Made by a program: the position numbers and the translations under genes | Shown: piece after piece, positions 19,142 to 52,785 of the stretch | Layout: every line of letters starts with the position of its first letter | How positions within the stretch are numbered: the first letter of the stretch is position 1 | Notes under the pieces: generated by a model | What the model was told of the DNA's origin: nothing | The model's input: only the letters and a program-made list of their open reading frames with translations | Databases searched by the model: none | IMG/VR virus record: IMGVR_UViG_3300047469_000311 | Coordinates: 1-60,934 of that record | Length of the DNA stretch: 60,934 bases | Source: a virus | Strand: one strand, 5' to 3'

Positions 19142-21346
19142 TCACGACACCGAGTGCATGTTGACAGCAACCTTCGCCGTCACCACGCTTTCGATACCGC
19201 TCACGTCGATCGAACCCATGATCGGCAGGTTCACGACGTGCAGGAACGACGGCTGGACCGTGATTTCCTTGCTGTTCGCGCCGTTGCGGTGCAGCGGGAG
19301 AATCAGCGTCAGTTCCGGCTTCCATGCCATGTTGCCGAAGTGCATCGGATTCGGCACGCCTTCCTTGCCTTCACCGAATTCGCCGAACGACATGCGGATC
19401 TTGCCGCGCATGTTGATGTTCAGCGTCGACACGATCTTCACGTTGAAGTCGTTGCCGAGCGTACGGAAGTCGCCCGTGACTTGCAGGTAACGCGCGATGA
19501 CCGGGTCCGTACCGATGATGACGGTCGGCGTAGCAGCGATGCCGCCAGCCAGTGCGTCAGCCGCAGCCTTGTAGCCCGAGTCGCGGTACATGCGGTAAGC
19601 CATGTCGCGCAGGATGTTGATCAGCGAAGCCTGGATGTCGGCCGCACGTTCGTGCGACTTGATCGAGTCCACCACCGCCGGTGCGCTGTAGTCTTGGTGC
19701 TCGTAGAACGGAGTCACCAGGAAACGCGCCACGCCGAGGATTTCCGGATCGCCTTGATACAGACCACCGTTGGCCGTGACCAGTTCCTTCAGCGCCGTTT
19801 CGACGTCCAGCAGCTTCGCCACTGCAGCGTTCGACGTACGGATGTGCGTTGCCGTGATCAGTGCAGCCAGATCGCTTGCGTCGTTCTGGTCACCCAGCGT
19901 CAGCGGACGCGGAATCGTGATCGGCGACAGGAGCGGCACGCCGTAAACCATGTTGTAGAACGTGAGGTCGAGCAGCTGACCGCGTTCACGACGGTTCGTG
20001 TTCGTGCGACGTGCGTCGAGGTCGTAACCGACGATCGAAGCACCAGCCAGCGCGGTCATGATCGTTGCGCCAGCGCCCGTGGTCTGGTCGACCAGGTTGC
20101 CGTCTTCGTCACGGATTTCGTACACCGACACTTGACCAGCCGACAGTTGCGTGTCAGCGAGTTCGAGGTTCACGTTACCGAACACTTGCACCGACAGCTT
20201 GACTTCGTAGTTGCCTTGCACGATCGGCGCGAGAACCGACGAAGCCGAACCGTCGGCCTTCTTCGTGTTCACGTTCAGCACGAGCGCGTTGCTGATGAAG
20301 TTCAGCGTCATCAGACGGTAGTTGTTCTGCACCGAGTACGTGAACGTGCCCGATTGCATGTTGGCAACCGACTTGAACTTGATGACTTCGGCCGAGCCAC
20401 CCGAGCCGACTTGCAGGTACAGCGAGCTCAGCTTGATCGCCGGGTCGATTGCGTCGGTCGAATCCAGCATGCCGGTTTCGAGCAGCGCGTCGGTTTGCGA
20501 GATGCCGAGCAGCGAGAACGACTTGCCGATCGCGAGCGGCGCCGTCTTGATCGACACGCCTTCGTATTCGATGTCCGCAGCCGGAACCAGGCTCGAGCCG
20601 ACGAAGTTCGCAGCGCTTTCCGGACGGTAGACCGGGACGATCTTCGAGAGGTCGTTGCGCAGGATGGTCGGGTCGATCAGGGCCTGGATGATGTTCTTCT
20701 TGCCGAAGTTCTTGCTCAGCGCGCCGTCGATGGTGCGACGAACTTCGTCGTACACTTGCACGAGGCGAATCGACACGGTGTAGCCGTACTGGTCCGGCGT
20801 GACGACGACGGTCGGGAAGAAAGCTTCGCCGAATTCGTCTTGACGTGCAGCTTGCAGGTTGTACGCCACCGAGTACACGGTAGCCGACTTCGTTTCACGC
20901 TCGTCGTATGCTTCGAGCGCCTTCGACTGGCGATGATCCATCGCGCCATTGCCCATCGCGGGGATGAACGTGTGGCCTTCGAGCGAAACCTTGCGTGCGA
21001 CCGGTGCCTTCAGGAAGCCAGCCATGTCGCCCGCGACGATTGCCGCGACCAGACCTGCTTGCTTCTGCGCGACGGTGTGCTTGCCCTTGATCAGGCCGTC
21101 GTTGGCGTTCAGTTCAGCTGCGAATTGCGAGCTGATCGATTCCAGCGAGGTCTTCAGACCCTTGACCGAGCCTTCGAGCTCTTGTTGCGTGACGGCGTCG
21201 AGCGACTCCATCGCAACCACGGACGATGCCAGGCGCTTTTCGATGTGCGGGCCGCTGCGGTTGACAGCGTGTTGGACCTTCGCAACCAGCGAGTTGATCG
21301 TGCCGTCCTGGCCAGCGTTGCCGATTTGATACAGTTTGGAAGACAT
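19142..21346 (-). CDS. Major capsid protein (phiKZ-type, 734 aa, with propeptide)
   Basis: Forms the icosahedral shell. Length and pattern match the phiKZ gp120 type of HK97-fold capsid protein. The first roughly 145 residues are helical and polar, like a scaffolding propeptide; a plausible prohead-protease site is ALE/AYDERETKS after E145, in agreement with the S/A/G-x-E rule known for the phiKZ protease. The mature part then begins before ATVYSVAYNLQAARQDEFGE. The C-terminus contains LPLHRNGANSKE (residues 683-694). The central part, about residues 236-452, has a diverged copy in the gene at 52024-52785. The last six codons of the preceding intergenic strand carry AAGGGAAACAAAAG before ATG. 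Expression is expected to be late and very high. Confidence 0.9.
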   Translation of the reverse strand: MSSKLYQIGNAGQDGTINSLVAKVQHAVNRSGPHIEKRLASSVVAMESLDAVTQQELEGSVKGLKTSLESISSQFAAELNANDGLIKGKHTVAQKQAGLVAAIVAGDMAGFLKAPVARKVSLEGHTFIPAMGNGAMDHRQSKALEAYDERETKSATVYSVAYNLQAARQDEFGEAFFPTVVVTPDQYGYTVSIRLVQVYDEVRRTIDGALSKNFGKKNIIQALIDPTILRNDLSKIVPVYRPESAANFVGSSLVPAADIEYEGVSIKTAPLAIGKSFSLLGISQTDALLETGMLDSTDAIDPAIKLSSLYLQVGSGGSAEVIKFKSVANMQSGTFTYSVQNNYRLMTLNFISNALVLNVNTKKADGSASSVLAPIVQGNYEVKLSVQVFGNVNLELADTQLSAGQVSVYEIRDEDGNLVDQTTGAGATIMTALAGASIVGYDLDARRTNTNRRERGQLLDLTFYNMVYGVPLLSPITIPRPLTLGDQNDASDLAALITATHIRTSNAAVAKLLDVETALKELVTANGGLYQGDPEILGVARFLVTPFYEHQDYSAPAVVDSIKSHERAADIQASLINILRDMAYRMYRDSGYKAAADALAGGIAATPTVIIGTDPVIARYLQVTGDFRTLGNDFNVKIVSTLNINMRGKIRMSFGEFGEGKEGVPNPMHFGNMAWKPELTLILPLHRNGANSKEITVQPSFLHVVNLPIMGSIDVSGIESVVTAKVAVNMHSVS

Positions 21347-21395
21347 CTTTTGTTTCCCTTGAGTTAAACGAAGTTGCTATTGGGGCTGAAACCGT

Positions 21396-44978: not shown

Positions 44979-45070
44979 TGGCGGAGAAAGTTGGATTCGA
45001 ACCAACGGTACAGGCACGCCCGTACTCCGGATTAGCAGTCCGGTGCTTTAAGCCTCTCAGCCATCTCTCC
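44979..45070 (-). tRNA. tRNA-Ser (anticodon GCT)
   Basis: A complete cloverleaf in 92 bases: acceptor GGAGAGA pairing with the 3-prime TTTCTCC, D arm with GCTGAGAGGC, anticodon stem CCGGA/TCCGG with loop CTGCTAA (anticodon GCT), a long variable arm typical of serine tRNA, T loop TTCGAAT and an encoded CCA. It decodes AGC/AGU. It is normal in every respect and serves as a control for the atypical units nearby. Confidence 0.9.
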
Positions 45071-45078
45071 ATTACTAC

Positions 45079-45360
45079 TTAAACTGCTTCGACCCGGATG
45101 ATCGTGGGCGCATTTTCGCGATAGTGAGCGATGCTCTCTTCACGTGCACCGCACGCTTTCATGTCGGCGATTCGCAGATCGATCCAGACAGGAATGTCAG
45201 CACGCGCTTCTTCCTCGGTCGCGTACTGCTTGGCTTCATGTCGGTTGTCGCCCGTCAGACTAGCAATGACGCAAGAGGGAATCGGACCCGTCACATCCGG
45301 GTTGAAATATTCTTTGCTGTTCGCACCGTTGCGATGCAAAGGAGCTACCAGAATGAACAT
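45079..45360 (-). CDS. Small protein carrying a capsid C-terminal motif (93 aa)
   Basis: Residues 1-19 (MFILVAPLHRNGANSKEYF) contain PLHRNGANSKE, identical over 11 residues to the major capsid protein segment at 684-694; the underlying DNA is also nearly the same. The rest (EEARADIPVWIDLRIADMKA and so on) is unrelated to the capsid. The ribosome site is weak. It sits within the tRNA cluster, 8 bases from tRNA-Ser. It may be a recombinant or a gene recognising the capsid context; function unknown. Confidence 0.55.
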   Translation of the reverse strand: MFILVAPLHRNGANSKEYFNPDVTGPIPSCVIASLTGDNRHEAKQYATEEEARADIPVWIDLRIADMKACGAREESIAHYRENAPTIIRVEAV

Positions 45361-45388
45361 GACGTTATCCGCAAAATGATTAGGTTAA

Positions 45389-45466
45389 TGGCCCCTTGGG
45401 AAGGATTTGAACCTCCGACACACCACCATTCGAGGTGGCCGCTCTACCAGACTGAGCTACCGCGGG
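45389..45466 (-). tRNA. Atypical tRNA-like gene with an 8-base anticodon loop
   Basis: D arm GCTC/GAGC, T arm with loop TTCAAAT and encoded CCA are present. With the standard 5-base variable region, the anticodon stem is GCCAC/GTGGT and the loop is CTCGAATG, eight bases instead of seven. The acceptor CCCGCGG pairs with CCAAGGG only at both ends; the two central pairs are G-A and C-A. The anticodon cannot be assigned safely (CGA if read from U33). It may be a frameshift-type tRNA, a tRNA mimic or a decaying gene. Confidence 0.5.
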
Positions 45467-45484
45467 ATACAACAGAAAACTGGT

Positions 45485-45566
45485 TGGTCCAGCAAGTGGT
45501 TTCGAGCCACCACCAAACTATCGACGCATGCATTCGCGATAGCCCAGTCCCTACCGGGGCAGACCA
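45485..45566 (-). tRNA. tRNA-like element with aberrant anticodon arm
   Basis: Four arms can be drawn: a short closing stem TGGTC/GACCA, a D-like arm GCCC/GGGC, an anticodon-like arm CTATCG/CGATAG with a long loop around GCATGC, and a T-like arm GGTGG/CCACT with loop CTCGAAA. The 3-prime CCA is part of the closing stem and no normal 7-bp acceptor exists. I treat it as a tRNA-derived structured RNA rather than a functional tRNA. Confidence 0.35.
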
Positions 45567-45588
45567 CAGAGTAAAGACTAAAAAAGAG

Positions 45589-45714
45589 TGGTTCCGTCAG
45601 GTTGGTATCGAACCAACGACCTCCGTCTGGTTGGTGAGTGGGAGAGTCCACCCTACCTGGCCGGTAGGTGGGCCCACTCTGGTGACGGCGCTCTACCGGC
45701 TGAGCTACTGCGGA
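45589..45714 (-). tRNA. Interrupted tRNA-like gene (56-base anticodon loop)
   Basis: A full tRNA body is split in its anticodon loop. Acceptor TCCGCAG pairs with CTG-A-CGGA (one bulged A), D arm GCTC/GAGC, anticodon stem CCGTC/GACGG, variable AGGTC, T arm GTTGG-TTCGATA-CCAAC and encoded ACCA. Between the anticodon stem strands lie 56 bases that fold into nested hairpins: GAGTGGG/CCCACTC around CCACCTACC/GGTAGGGTGG. No anticodon can be read directly. Confidence 0.5.
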
Positions 45715-45738
45715 CACTGAAGTACAACGGTAAAAGGA

Positions 45739-45871
45739 TGGTTCCAAGCGACACGAATCGAACGTGTGACCTCCCGTCTGTGTATATCCAACTCCACCAC
45801 TTCCCCTAACGGGGAAGCCCGGATTCGAACCGGGGAACTACGGGCACTCTTCCAAACTGAGCTACGCTGGA
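45739..45871 (-). tRNA. Interrupted tRNA-like gene (62-base anticodon loop with tRNA-like insert)
   Basis: Acceptor TCCAGCG pairs with CGC-T-TGGA (one bulged T), D arm GCTC/GAGT, anticodon stem CCCGT/ACGGG, variable AGGTC, T arm ACACG-TTCGATT-CGTGT and encoded ACCA. The 62 bases inside the anticodon loop contain a T-arm-like hairpin CCCGG-TTCGAAT-CCGGG, then CTTCCCC-GTTA-GGGGAAG, then a D-arm-like GTGGTGGAGTTGG. The insert therefore looks like the 3-prime half of a second tRNA placed before its 5-prime half. Confidence 0.5.
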
Positions 45872-45896
45872 CACTGATACAGCTACTACGAATTCT

Positions 45897-45974
45897 TGGC
45901 TCCCCAGGGTGGGTTCGAACCACCGACCTTCGGATTAACAGTCCGACGCTGACTACCAACTGAGCTACTGAGGA
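45897..45974 (-). tRNA. tRNA-Asn (anticodon GTT)
   Basis: Complete cloverleaf: acceptor TCCTCAG/CTGGGGA, D arm GCTC with loop AGTTGGTA, anticodon stem TCGGA/TCCGA with loop CTGTTAA, T loop TTCGAAC and encoded CCA. It decodes AAC/AAU. Confidence 0.9.
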
Positions 45975-45989
45975 ATTGAAGCATGCGAA

Positions 45990-46074
45990 TGGTGGAGAAG
46001 GATGGATTCGAACCATCGTAGGCAAAGCCAACAGATTTACAGTCTGCCCCCTTTAGCCACTCGGGCACCTCTCC
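45990..46074 (-). tRNA. tRNA-Tyr (anticodon GTA)
   Basis: 85 bases: acceptor GGAGAGG/CTTCTCC, anticodon stem GCAGA/TCTGT with loop CTGTAAA (anticodon GTA), a long variable arm as usual for tyrosine tRNA, T loop TTCGAAT and encoded CCA. It decodes UAC/UAU. It is the first tRNA of the leftward cluster. Confidence 0.9.
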
Positions 46075-49291: not shown

Positions 49292-49783
49292 CTAGGTCGT
49301 GCGAAACGCTTCGTAGTTCGAGAAGCCAGTGAGGCAACGTCGAAGCTGCAAAGCGTCCCACAGTGCGTGATGCTGTACTGCACCCTGAAGCGCGCGATCC
49401 TGAACATACGGGTCGACGCGCTGTACTTCGAAGACGATACCAGGGATGTCCACCATCGTGCCGGGTCCCGTGATCAGCAGTTCGCTGAAATACTTCACGT
49501 CATCCGGCCAGTCGGTGATGATCCGAATCTCGCCCTCTTCTTTCTGCAAATACGCCTGCAGAACCTTTTGGAACTCTTCCACACCTAAGTGCAGAGGCCA
49601 AATACCGCTCGGGGTAGCCGCGTCCAGGTACGGGACTACATTGCGTTGCACCCACGGATCGATCGGTGCTTTCGGCCGGGGAAAGACGTTATACAACGCC
49701 ACCCCCAGACTGTTCACCAGACCGATACTCATCAACTCGCCTTTATGGCTGTTGAACTCCGTGTCCAAATAGACTTTCCCCAT
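49292..49783 (-). CDS. DEDDh-type 3'-5' exonuclease (163 aa)
   Basis: The exonuclease motifs are in order: VYLDTEFNS (D7, E9; Exo I), ITDWPDDVKYF (D91 or D94; Exo II) and QHHALWDALQ (H139, D143; Exo III). The enzyme would remove nucleotides from 3-prime ends using two metal ions; the small size and sequence recall the Rv2179c-like exoribonuclease family, so RNA may be the substrate. A CATATTAC box lies 42 bases upstream, suggesting early expression. It could process the nearby tRNA-like transcripts or degrade host RNA; this is inference. Confidence 0.75.
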   Translation of the reverse strand: MGKVYLDTEFNSHKGELMSIGLVNSLGVALYNVFPRPKAPIDPWVQRNVVPYLDAATPSGIWPLHLGVEEFQKVLQAYLQKEEGEIRIITDWPDDVKYFSELLITGPGTMVDIPGIVFEVQRVDPYVQDRALQGAVQHHALWDALQLRRCLTGFSNYEAFRTT

Positions 49784-50974: not shown

Positions 50975-51979
50975 TTAGGCGATGTGCGTGCCTTCGACTT
51001 CCCGTGCAATGCGGGCGCGCGTGCGACGCTGCAGGGCTTCGATCGCGGCGTTGATGTGATCCAGCGCTTCCTGGTTTTCGTCACAGGCGAACTTGCCGTC
51101 CTGGAAACCTTGCAGGCGATGACCGCAGGCCGCGAGCACAGCTTCGATCGTGACGCCGTTCTGACCGACCACGGGCACCACACCGTTCTGGAACAACAGG
51201 TGCAGCATCAGGCTTTGGCCAGCGTAGCCTTCTTCCAACACCGACGGATGCGTTTCCGCATTGAAGCCCGAGAAGACGTAGTAGTGATTCGCACCGCTGA
51301 CTTCGTTGGCGTTATCGCCGACGGCGACGAGCAGCTGCGTGTCTGCACCTTCGACCAGATGCTGGGTGATAACGGCACCCTTCTGGCGACCGAGAGCCCG
51401 CGCCTGCGCTTCCTGTTCCAGCCGCACAGCGGTATCTTCCGGTGATTCACACGGGTCGCCCAGATGATCGCCTGCGGCGTCCGTTTCGTAGGCAGCAGTA
51501 ATGACGATGTCTTCGAGCGGTACGTCTTGATGAAAGCCCTTGCTGCCGGTCTTCACCTGACGAATCGCGTCGATCACTTCTTCACCGACGATCACCTTGC
51601 CGAACACAGCGTAGCCCCAGCCTTGCGGGGTCGGCGACGAGTGGTTCAGGAACTCGTTGTTGTTCACGTTGATGAAGAATTGCGCGCTCGCCGAGTGCGG
51701 ATCATTCGTGCGAGCCATCGCGATCGTGTACAGTTCGTTCTTCAAACCGTTTTGCGCTTCGTTCGCGATCGGTGCATCCGTTTCGCGTTGGGTCTTCATG
51801 TTGGCTTCGAAGCCGCCGCCTTGCACCATGAAGCCGTTGATCACGCGATGGAAGATCAGACCGTTGTAATGGCCCTTGTTCACGTAAGCGAGGAAATTCG
51901 CGACAGTCTTGGGGGCACGCTCATCGTCGAGCTCGACGAGGAAGTTACCCTTGGTGGTTTCGAATAGAGCGTGTTTCAT
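50975..51979 (-). CDS. Cyclophilin-type prolyl isomerase fused to an Acb2/Tad1-like domain (334 aa)
   Basis: Residues 1-165 are a PpiB-like cyclophilin: [17 protein letters not shown] (41-57, catalytic R45), [12 protein letters not shown] (97-108), and [18 protein letters not shown] (122-139). A roughly 35-residue Glu/Asp-rich linker follows. Residues about 200-334 match the small phage proteins annotated as Acb2/Tad1 domain: [56 protein letters not shown] and the end [14 protein letters not shown]. Acb2 and Tad1 proteins sequester cyclic (oligo)nucleotide signals of CBASS and Thoeris defences. Normally the family ends RGVEGT; here REVEGT. Both domains appear intact. A fused isomerase is not something I know of. 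Confidence 0.85.
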
Positions 51980-52023: not shown

Positions 52024-52785
52024 TTAAACCGGGTGATATTCGGGTGAAGTCCGATACCGCGCAGCGAGCGTGTCTGCTGCATCAACTTGCAGGTTTTCCT
52101 GCGAGACATACCGCGGTGCTCTGAGCGCGTTCAACCGATCAATGTCCAGATCGTAGCCAACGAGCATCACGTCGGCGAGTACAATCTGAACGAGGTCGTC
52201 CCGAATCTTCTTGCGAATGTCGTCATCGGCCAGCGCTGGCGTATCGGGAAACTGGAATGCCCCCTCGCCGATCTGCGACGCGTAGAAACACGTGTCACCC
52301 AGGTGCAGATTCACCCGACCGGCGACTTGCGCTTCAACCGTGATAACAATGCCCGCGGCCGTGAACGGATCGATCACGTTCAAAATCTTGCCGTTGACGT
52401 CACGCGTGTAGCGATCCAGGCGAACCGAAAGTCGGTGATCTTTCAGCTCGATCGTACGGTACGAGCCAGTAGGTCCGGGACTCAACGGCACATTGATCGG
52501 TGCACAGACGTACTGCTCGCCGATCTGTAGATAGACGTTTTCCAGCAATGCCTTGTGACCGATGTGATCCGTCATGTCGAGAAGCACTGTCTCGAGTAGC
52601 GCTTTGGTTTCTCCCAATGCCAGCACTGAGAACGCCGCCCCAAAGCGATACGGTGCCGTGAGGACCGCCTCGTCGTCGATCGTCGCACTGCGTTGCAGAT
52701 CTGTCACAATGTAACCGGCGGCTTCCGGTCGCACGATAGGAACAATCCGTGCCCCGCGGAACCGTTTGAATTGTTGTGCTTCCAC
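52024..52785 (-). CDS. Truncated major-capsid paralogue (253 aa, GTG start)
   Basis: The protein aligns with the central part of the major capsid protein (about residues 236-452): [15 protein letters not shown] versus [34 protein letters not shown] versus LGISQTDALLETGMLDSTD; NVYLQIG versus [23 protein letters not shown] versus SIVGYDLDARRTNTNR. The propeptide and the C-terminal third are absent. GTG at 52785 has AAAAGGACAGAAA upstream; a TTG start 47 codons earlier is also possible. It may be a minor capsid component, an assembly regulator or a decoy. Confidence 0.75.

Follow-up and report, generated by a model that had tools for sequence, protein, structure and literature searches.

A Cyclophilin Fused to a Tad1-Family Domain, with a Capsid-Domain Paralogue Next Door, in a Lineage of phiKZ-Like Phages

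We describe a gene that joins a PpiB-type cyclophilin to a predicted Tad1-family sponge domain in the IMG/VR virus record IMGVR_UViG_3300047469_000311 (60,934 bases, analyzed over its full length and hereafter termed the window). The fusion occurs in six records of one phiKZ-like lineage and lies in all of them directly downstream of a gene paralogous to a single major capsid protein domain. We read the gene as encoding a Tad1 sponge mounted on a cyclophilin within a capsid-linked module, probably loaded into the phage head and injected, and we give this reading as a whole about an even chance of being correct. Sponge proteins have been described as small, free proteins; here the Tad1 domain is linked in nature, by fusion or gene order, to a prolyl isomerase and a capsid-domain copy, and a natural deletion variant is available as well. 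The idea that phages deliver anti-immune proteins along with their DNA thereby becomes testable on one defined protein, and one of the six records, Burkholderia phage FLC9, is an isolated phage whose virions can be examined.

The fusion gene and its two domains

The minus-strand frame at positions 50975-51979 encodes 334 amino acids without an inner stop and contains the motifs quoted in the original prediction, which had proposed, from the letters alone, an intact PpiB-like cyclophilin joined by a charged linker to an Acb2/Tad1-like domain of about 135 residues. The survey of related phages suggested there recovered the full-length fusion in five further records: IMGVR 3300047319_001872 (98% identical, on a 313-kb contig), IMGVR 3300047472_000309 (74%), gp131 of FLC9 (59% identity across residues 1-332 of the window fusion), and the IMG/VR contigs L333 and L334, which are nearly identical to each other and count as about one. 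Of 76 GenBank phage records with a match, FLC9 (321,833 bases; host Burkholderia glumae) alone covers at least 80% of the fusion query; a 2025 review lists it as an unclassified genus placed in one family with Chimalliviridae phages (PMC12388082). The scans of relatives were not exhaustive, keeping 80 of 115 relatives in one and 79 loci of 102 relatives in another. A chimeric assembly or reading-frame artefact is vanishingly improbable, and no observation speaks for one: the frame is single and intact, with no frameshift dividing it into separate genes, and the full-length fusion recurs in independent records, one of them an isolated phage. Against the 98%-identical relative, the fusion carries 25 synonymous and 8 non-synonymous codon differences, and in comparisons with three relatives the proportion of non-synonymous differences (pN) is below that of synonymous differences (pS) in both domains (the weakest case being the Tad1 part against FLC9, with pN 0.31 and pS 0.52), which fits purifying selection on the whole fusion frame.

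Residues 6-163 match the Pfam cyclophilin family PF00160 (4.7e-45), and solved PpiB-type structures match the same part of the protein, the best being 3s6m (3.6e-77). The NCBIfam equivalog model for PpiB (peptidylprolyl isomerase B) also matches (3.1e-63), with a score of 212.5 bits that lies below its curated cut-off of 297. Residues R45, F50, Q53, F102, L111 and Y123, which we take to be the positions forming the cyclophilin active site, are invariant in a 12-row alignment in which four rows are fusion members. At the level of sequence, these comparisons confirm a PpiB-type cyclophilin with its active-site residues kept. The expected charged linker follows, comprising about 37 residues, and evolves fast, with a pN against FLC9 of 0.47 for residues 164-219 compared with 0.16 for the cyclophilin; it leads into a domain of about 134 residues.

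The closest solved chain to this C-terminal domain is gp184 of phiKZ (phmmer, 5.6e-17), and Tad1 chains follow between 1.7e-6 (8kbb) and 1.2e-5, with others, including 7uav, at about 1e-5. The domain also matches three PHROGs of unknown function (8.8e-26, 4.6e-25 and 1.8e-16). We modelled residues 190-334 with AlphaFold2 (AF2) from a 96-row alignment comprising the window, L003, L004 and 93 of 140 non-redundant domains, after short, weak and oddly extended ones had been excluded by hand. The single-chain model, with a mean predicted local distance difference test score (pLDDT) of 89.0, consists of short strands followed by two long helices. All 20 Foldseek matches of the model at E up to 0.001 are Tad1 structures (best 2.7e-8), and VIA-align superimposes 123 residues on 8smd_A (CbTad1 with glycocyclic ADP-ribose, gcADPR) at Z 12.2 and a root-mean-square deviation of 3.8, the first unrelated entry appearing only at Z 7.0. 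The gp184 chain, 8y6v_I, is not among the Foldseek or VIA matches shown.

Seven residues are invariant across the 96 rows (Q264, G266, N274, G275, N302, R319 and R323). In an alignment with the 7uav chain, F292 pairs with F83 and N302 with N93, presumed here to correspond to F82 and N92 of the CbTad1 pocket; judged by these assumed positions, the ligand-pocket residues appear to be kept, and the loss that the original prediction had named as counting against it is not seen. Sequence and predicted fold together confirm assignment of the C-terminal domain to the Tad1 family, and binding of a messenger such as gcADPR or a cyclic oligonucleotide would be in keeping with that assignment.

The Acb2 part of the earlier designation did not hold. 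The Pfam family PF24729, which groups the helical hairpins of Acb2 and Tad1, gives no match for the fusion at E up to 1, and the C-terminal domain has predicted strands before its two helices, as Tad1 does, whereas the Acb2 protomer consists of helices only, according to a review. The missing PF24729 match does not refute a Tad1 sponge: the model matches SBSphiJ7 Tad1 (34.2 bits) yet also misses phiKZ gp184, and its silence is therefore uninformative. A PADLOC scan returned nothing relevant, and PADLOC likewise misses SBSphiJ7 Tad1 and gp184.

We collected 184 distinct Tad1-like domains. In 152 of them the domain is separated by 0-59 residues from the frame's first methionine, and in five the N-terminal extension exceeds 180 residues: these are four cyclophilin fusions, including that of the window, and one capsid-domain fusion, described below. 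Two more cyclophilin fusions turned up after this count. Separately, a 127,830-base viral contig encodes a Tad1-like domain followed by a C-terminal extension of about 196 residues (L023:5917-6936).

Table 1. Coordinates of the features discussed (window positions unless another record is named).
Feature	Position	Strand	Details
Cyclophilin-Tad1 fusion gene	50975..51979	-	334 amino acids + stop; single open frame; full-length homologues in 5 other records
PpiB-type cyclophilin, residues 1-163	51491..51979	-	PF00160 4.7e-45; PDB 3s6m 3.6e-77; R45, F50, Q53, F102, L111, Y123 kept
Charged linker, residues 164-200 (~37 residues)	51380..51490	-	Fast-evolving
Tad1-family domain (predicted), residues ~201-334	50978..51379	-	PDB phmmer; AF2 pLDDT 89.0; Foldseek and VIA to Tad1 structures
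F292	51104..51106	-	Aligned with equivalent of CbTad1 pocket F82; F/Y/L = 90/5/1 of 96 rows
N302	51074..51076	-	Aligned with equivalent of CbTad1 pocket N92; N in 96/96 rows
Helix stretch R319 to R323	51011..51025	-	R at both positions in 96/96 rows
Capsid-domain paralogue, directly upstream of fusion	52024..52785	-	PF25620 3.6e-9; AF2/Foldseek; start 52785 inferred from L004 alignment; longest frame to 52926
Major capsid protein, phiKZ type	19145..21376	-	Stop-to-stop frame, 744 codons; source family of capsid-domain paralogue
Capsid-domain paralogue + Tad1 gene of L006	L006:6552-7682		376 amino acids; PF25620 4.1e-25; PHROG 2428, 5.4e-28

The capsid-domain neighbour and natural variants of the module

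The gene directly upstream lies 44 bases from the start of the fusion and encodes a protein paralogous to a single domain of the phiKZ-type major capsid protein. Foldseek, run on the AF2 model of this protein (7 rows, pLDDT 79.7), retrieved only capsid proteins of jumbo phages within the limit of E up to 0.001: three matches, led by 8y6v_a at 1.8e-12. The capsid family PF25620 also matches the FLC9 counterpart of the gene, gp132 (2.3e-14). The paralogue family model further matches the window's own major capsid protein, itself related by phmmer to solved major capsid proteins (best 1.1e-104; phiKZ gp120 in 8y6v, 1.1e-78). The paralogue adjoins the fusion in 6/6 records, namely the window, L003, L004, FLC9, L333 (where it is cut by the contig piece) and L334.

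A survey with PF25620 of 15 jumbo-phage records places this association in a wider context. Every record has a full-length capsid protein match and nine have extra partial matches, that of 201phi2-1 falling below the Pfam cut-off; eight of these nine also have Tad1. In six of the eight (G001, G002, FLC9, G004, G010 and 201phi2-1, the first three being one lineage) the partial match is fused to Tad1 or lies within about 2 kb of it, and in G008 and G003 the nearest one lies about 7.4 kb and 40 kb away, respectively. Chance alone, roughly estimated for one or two paralogues per 300 kb, would place one that close (within 2 kb) to a given gene in about 1.5-3% of genomes. In Phabio the paralogue is three genes from Tad1, and G005 has a paralogue and a cyclophilin with no Tad1 match found. 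Xanthomonas phage LucasX was rejected as a paralogue holder, since the gene that holds its match is annotated for similarity to the major capsid protein.

Two natural variants rearrange the module. L006 (IMGVR 3300047320_000285) has a stand-alone cyclophilin gene and, 47 bases downstream of it, a 376-residue gene in which the capsid-domain paralogue is itself joined to Tad1, a second sponge architecture for which we found no description. L337 (IMGVR 3300048861_000178) comes from a phage closely related to that of the window and retains the cyclophilin with part of the linker, but the Tad1 domain is gone in frame. The retained part is 90% identical to its L004 counterpart over 208 aligned columns, and residues 194-251 of the L337 protein correspond to the product of a small gene that separately follows the fusion in L004 (93%, 58 residues). 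Two capsid-domain paralogues lie directly upstream of this gene, and a search of the whole 315,190-base L337 record found no Tad1 match. The same locus (L337:4001-5062) contains, after the fused cyclophilin-linker gene, a 100-residue frame with no Pfam or PHROGs match. What ties the three domains together is their clustering at one locus, the two alternative ways in which they are fused, and the loss of the sponge by itself. The original prediction had noted neither the capsid-domain neighbour and the injected phiKZ relative nor these two variants.

L337 also bears on the possibility that the Tad1-like domain is now a head accessory protein that has lost messenger binding. The annotation of phiKZ gp184 as a structural protein and its presence as a chain of a capsid entry would suit such a role, which we nevertheless judge improbable: the pocket residues are conserved, the phiKZ Tad1 is said in print to sequester messengers (PMC13282480), and a close relative's 315-kb record has no Tad1 match. 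It follows from this last observation that close relatives differ in whether they have the sponge, a polymorphism common among anti-defence genes and not what an essential part of the head would show.

The cyclophilin would derive from a Burkholderiales-type host ppiB; among the best 80 of 589 matches, the closest cellular cyclophilins are mostly Burkholderiales by record title, with up to 73% identity. In a 92-row tree, the four fused cyclophilins included group as a single clade (100/99); the stand-alone cyclophilin of L006 lies inside Burkholderiaceae next to Pararobbsia (97/75). The tree favours repeated, independent capture of ppiB beside Tad1, which it only suggests and which we do not claim, because an approximately unbiased (AU) test does not reject a single clade of fused and L006 cyclophilins (p-AU 0.189).

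Several further observations concern these records. PpiB-like stand-alone cyclophilins are present, away from any Tad1 match, in the IMG/VR records of L005, L007 and L008, which also encode a phiKZ-type capsid protein. In FLC9 a SLOG-family protein (gp134, L001:12835-13380; cpYpsA, 9.7e-13) is encoded a few genes away from the fusion; nucleotide sensors in defence also use this fold. The window itself encodes four tRNA genes at 44979-46074 (ARAGORN), of which one has the four-base anticodon cgaa and was given no amino acid, and an RNase H-like protein at 49292-49783 (PHROG 2259, 2.9e-26).

Packaging, injection and the role of the cyclophilin

The case for a virion-borne sponge starts from phiKZ gp184. 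This protein is chain I of 8y6v, an entry titled as the phiKZ capsid structure that also contains the capsid protein gp120; for the 201phi2-1 homologue, gp280, detection by mass spectrometry is on record. In a proteomics paper, gp184 is reported to interact with the inner body and to have been validated as an injected protein (PMC10449902; n = 1 according to the blot legend), and an injected phiKZ Tad1 is said to block both Thoeris and the cyclic-oligonucleotide-based antiphage signalling system (CBASS) (PMC13282480). From the domain match, we infer that this injected Tad1 is gp184.

By extension, the fusion protein would probably enter the head together with capsid-related proteins and be injected with the DNA, as reported for gp184, removing the signal from the first minutes of infection. 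Its C-terminal domain would assemble like Tad1, presumably as a hexamer, and sequester Thoeris and/or CBASS signals, whether gcADPR or cyclic di- or trinucleotides. The cyclophilin would be enzymatically active as a prolyl isomerase and would dock the sponge to capsid-linked proteins or refold it with them. Docking of the cyclophilin on the paralogue would explain why the sponge is found joined to either partner; the chief competing role for the cyclophilin is that of a foldase acting once the protein has been ejected through the tail.

A number of results weigh against this reading. For every fusion member we infer packaging by analogy. The phiKZ, 201phi2-1, Phabio and PA1C proteins have N-terminal extensions with an S/A/G-X-E protease motif in the first 15 residues, whereas the fusions begin with the cyclophilin and have neither that extension nor such a motif near their start; a scan of the fusions with the same motif for a head-targeting peptide gave scattered sites only, which prove nothing. 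On the capsid side, phiKZ gave no capsid-domain paralogue at E up to 0.001, and gp282, the 201phi2-1 paralogue that scores below the Pfam cut-off, bears no mass-spectrometry note. Cyclophilins, finally, are loosely tied to Tad1 outside the lineage: they were matched in 3/4 records searched (the fusion lineage, with none in phiKZ) and in 4/9 further records, where only that of G004 adjoins Tad1. The stand-alone cyclophilins of G003 and G006 lie about 19 kb and 43 kb from it, G005 has one with no Tad1 match found, and L341, a fourth record with a stand-alone cyclophilin, likewise gave no Tad1 match. The single clade left standing by the AU test counts on this side as well.

These results bear on another explanation, possible though on the unlikely side, in which a working Tad1 sponge is made after infection starts and is not packaged, with the cyclophilin only improving folding, stability or solubility, whether of the sponge or of phage proteins. 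The short N-termini of most Tad1-like domains, the lack of the phiKZ-branch extension and the cyclophilins unlinked to Tad1 in some jumbo phages all speak for it; the paralogue adjoining the gene in every fusion record and the identity of the nearest solved homologue as a virion protein speak against it. Improbable, in our estimation, is a role for the cyclophilin in aiming the sponge at a host defence protein, or in isomerizing its prolines, such that both halves act on one pathway. A host-type cyclophilin with kept active-site residues would be apt for the purpose, but none of the results indicates a target, and L337 keeps its cyclophilin without a sponge.

A more speculative proposal, which we consider doubtful, develops head loading further. 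The cyclophilin would be a cargo carrier, docking on a proline-containing site of the paralogue to load an exchangeable passenger into the head, much as human cyclophilin A docks on the capsid of human immunodeficiency virus. The sponge would be one such passenger. In L337 the protein from the small gene next to it would have taken its place, and in L006 the sponge would be tied directly to the capsid-domain paralogue. If true, the arrangement would constitute a capsid-docking system delivering anti-defence proteins along with the genome.

Comparison with known systems

The search of open-licence PubMed Central (PMC) papers found no literature linking a cyclophilin to Tad1, in agreement with the original prediction, which knew of no described fusion of this kind, and the main text of a comparative overview of jumbo phages contains neither "cyclophilin" nor "peptidyl-prolyl" by word find (PMC7824862). 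What appears to be new is the cyclophilin fusion, together with the capsid-domain fusion and the deletion seen in nature; Tad1 sponges and the injected phiKZ Tad1 were already known.

Compared with bacterial PpiB, the cyclophilin reaches 72-73% identity with Burkholderiales proteins and has the active-site residues in common with them; it differs in being joined to a phage sponge, and in the separate clade that the four fused members in the tree form. The Tad1 domain has its fold and core motifs in common with CbTad1, CmTad1 and SBSphiJ7 Tad1, at 25-27% identity to the CbTad1 and CmTad1 structures and 33% to SBSphiJ7 Tad1, but these are short chains of 123-142 residues without a cyclophilin. 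The nearest known counterpart remains phiKZ gp184, which has the same C-terminal domain, belongs to a phage of the same type, and is a capsid-entry chain reported as injected. Where the window protein has its cyclophilin, gp184 has an N-terminal extension of about 100 residues, and phiKZ has neither a cyclophilin that we could find nor, at E up to 0.001, the capsid-domain paralogue that accompanies every fusion.
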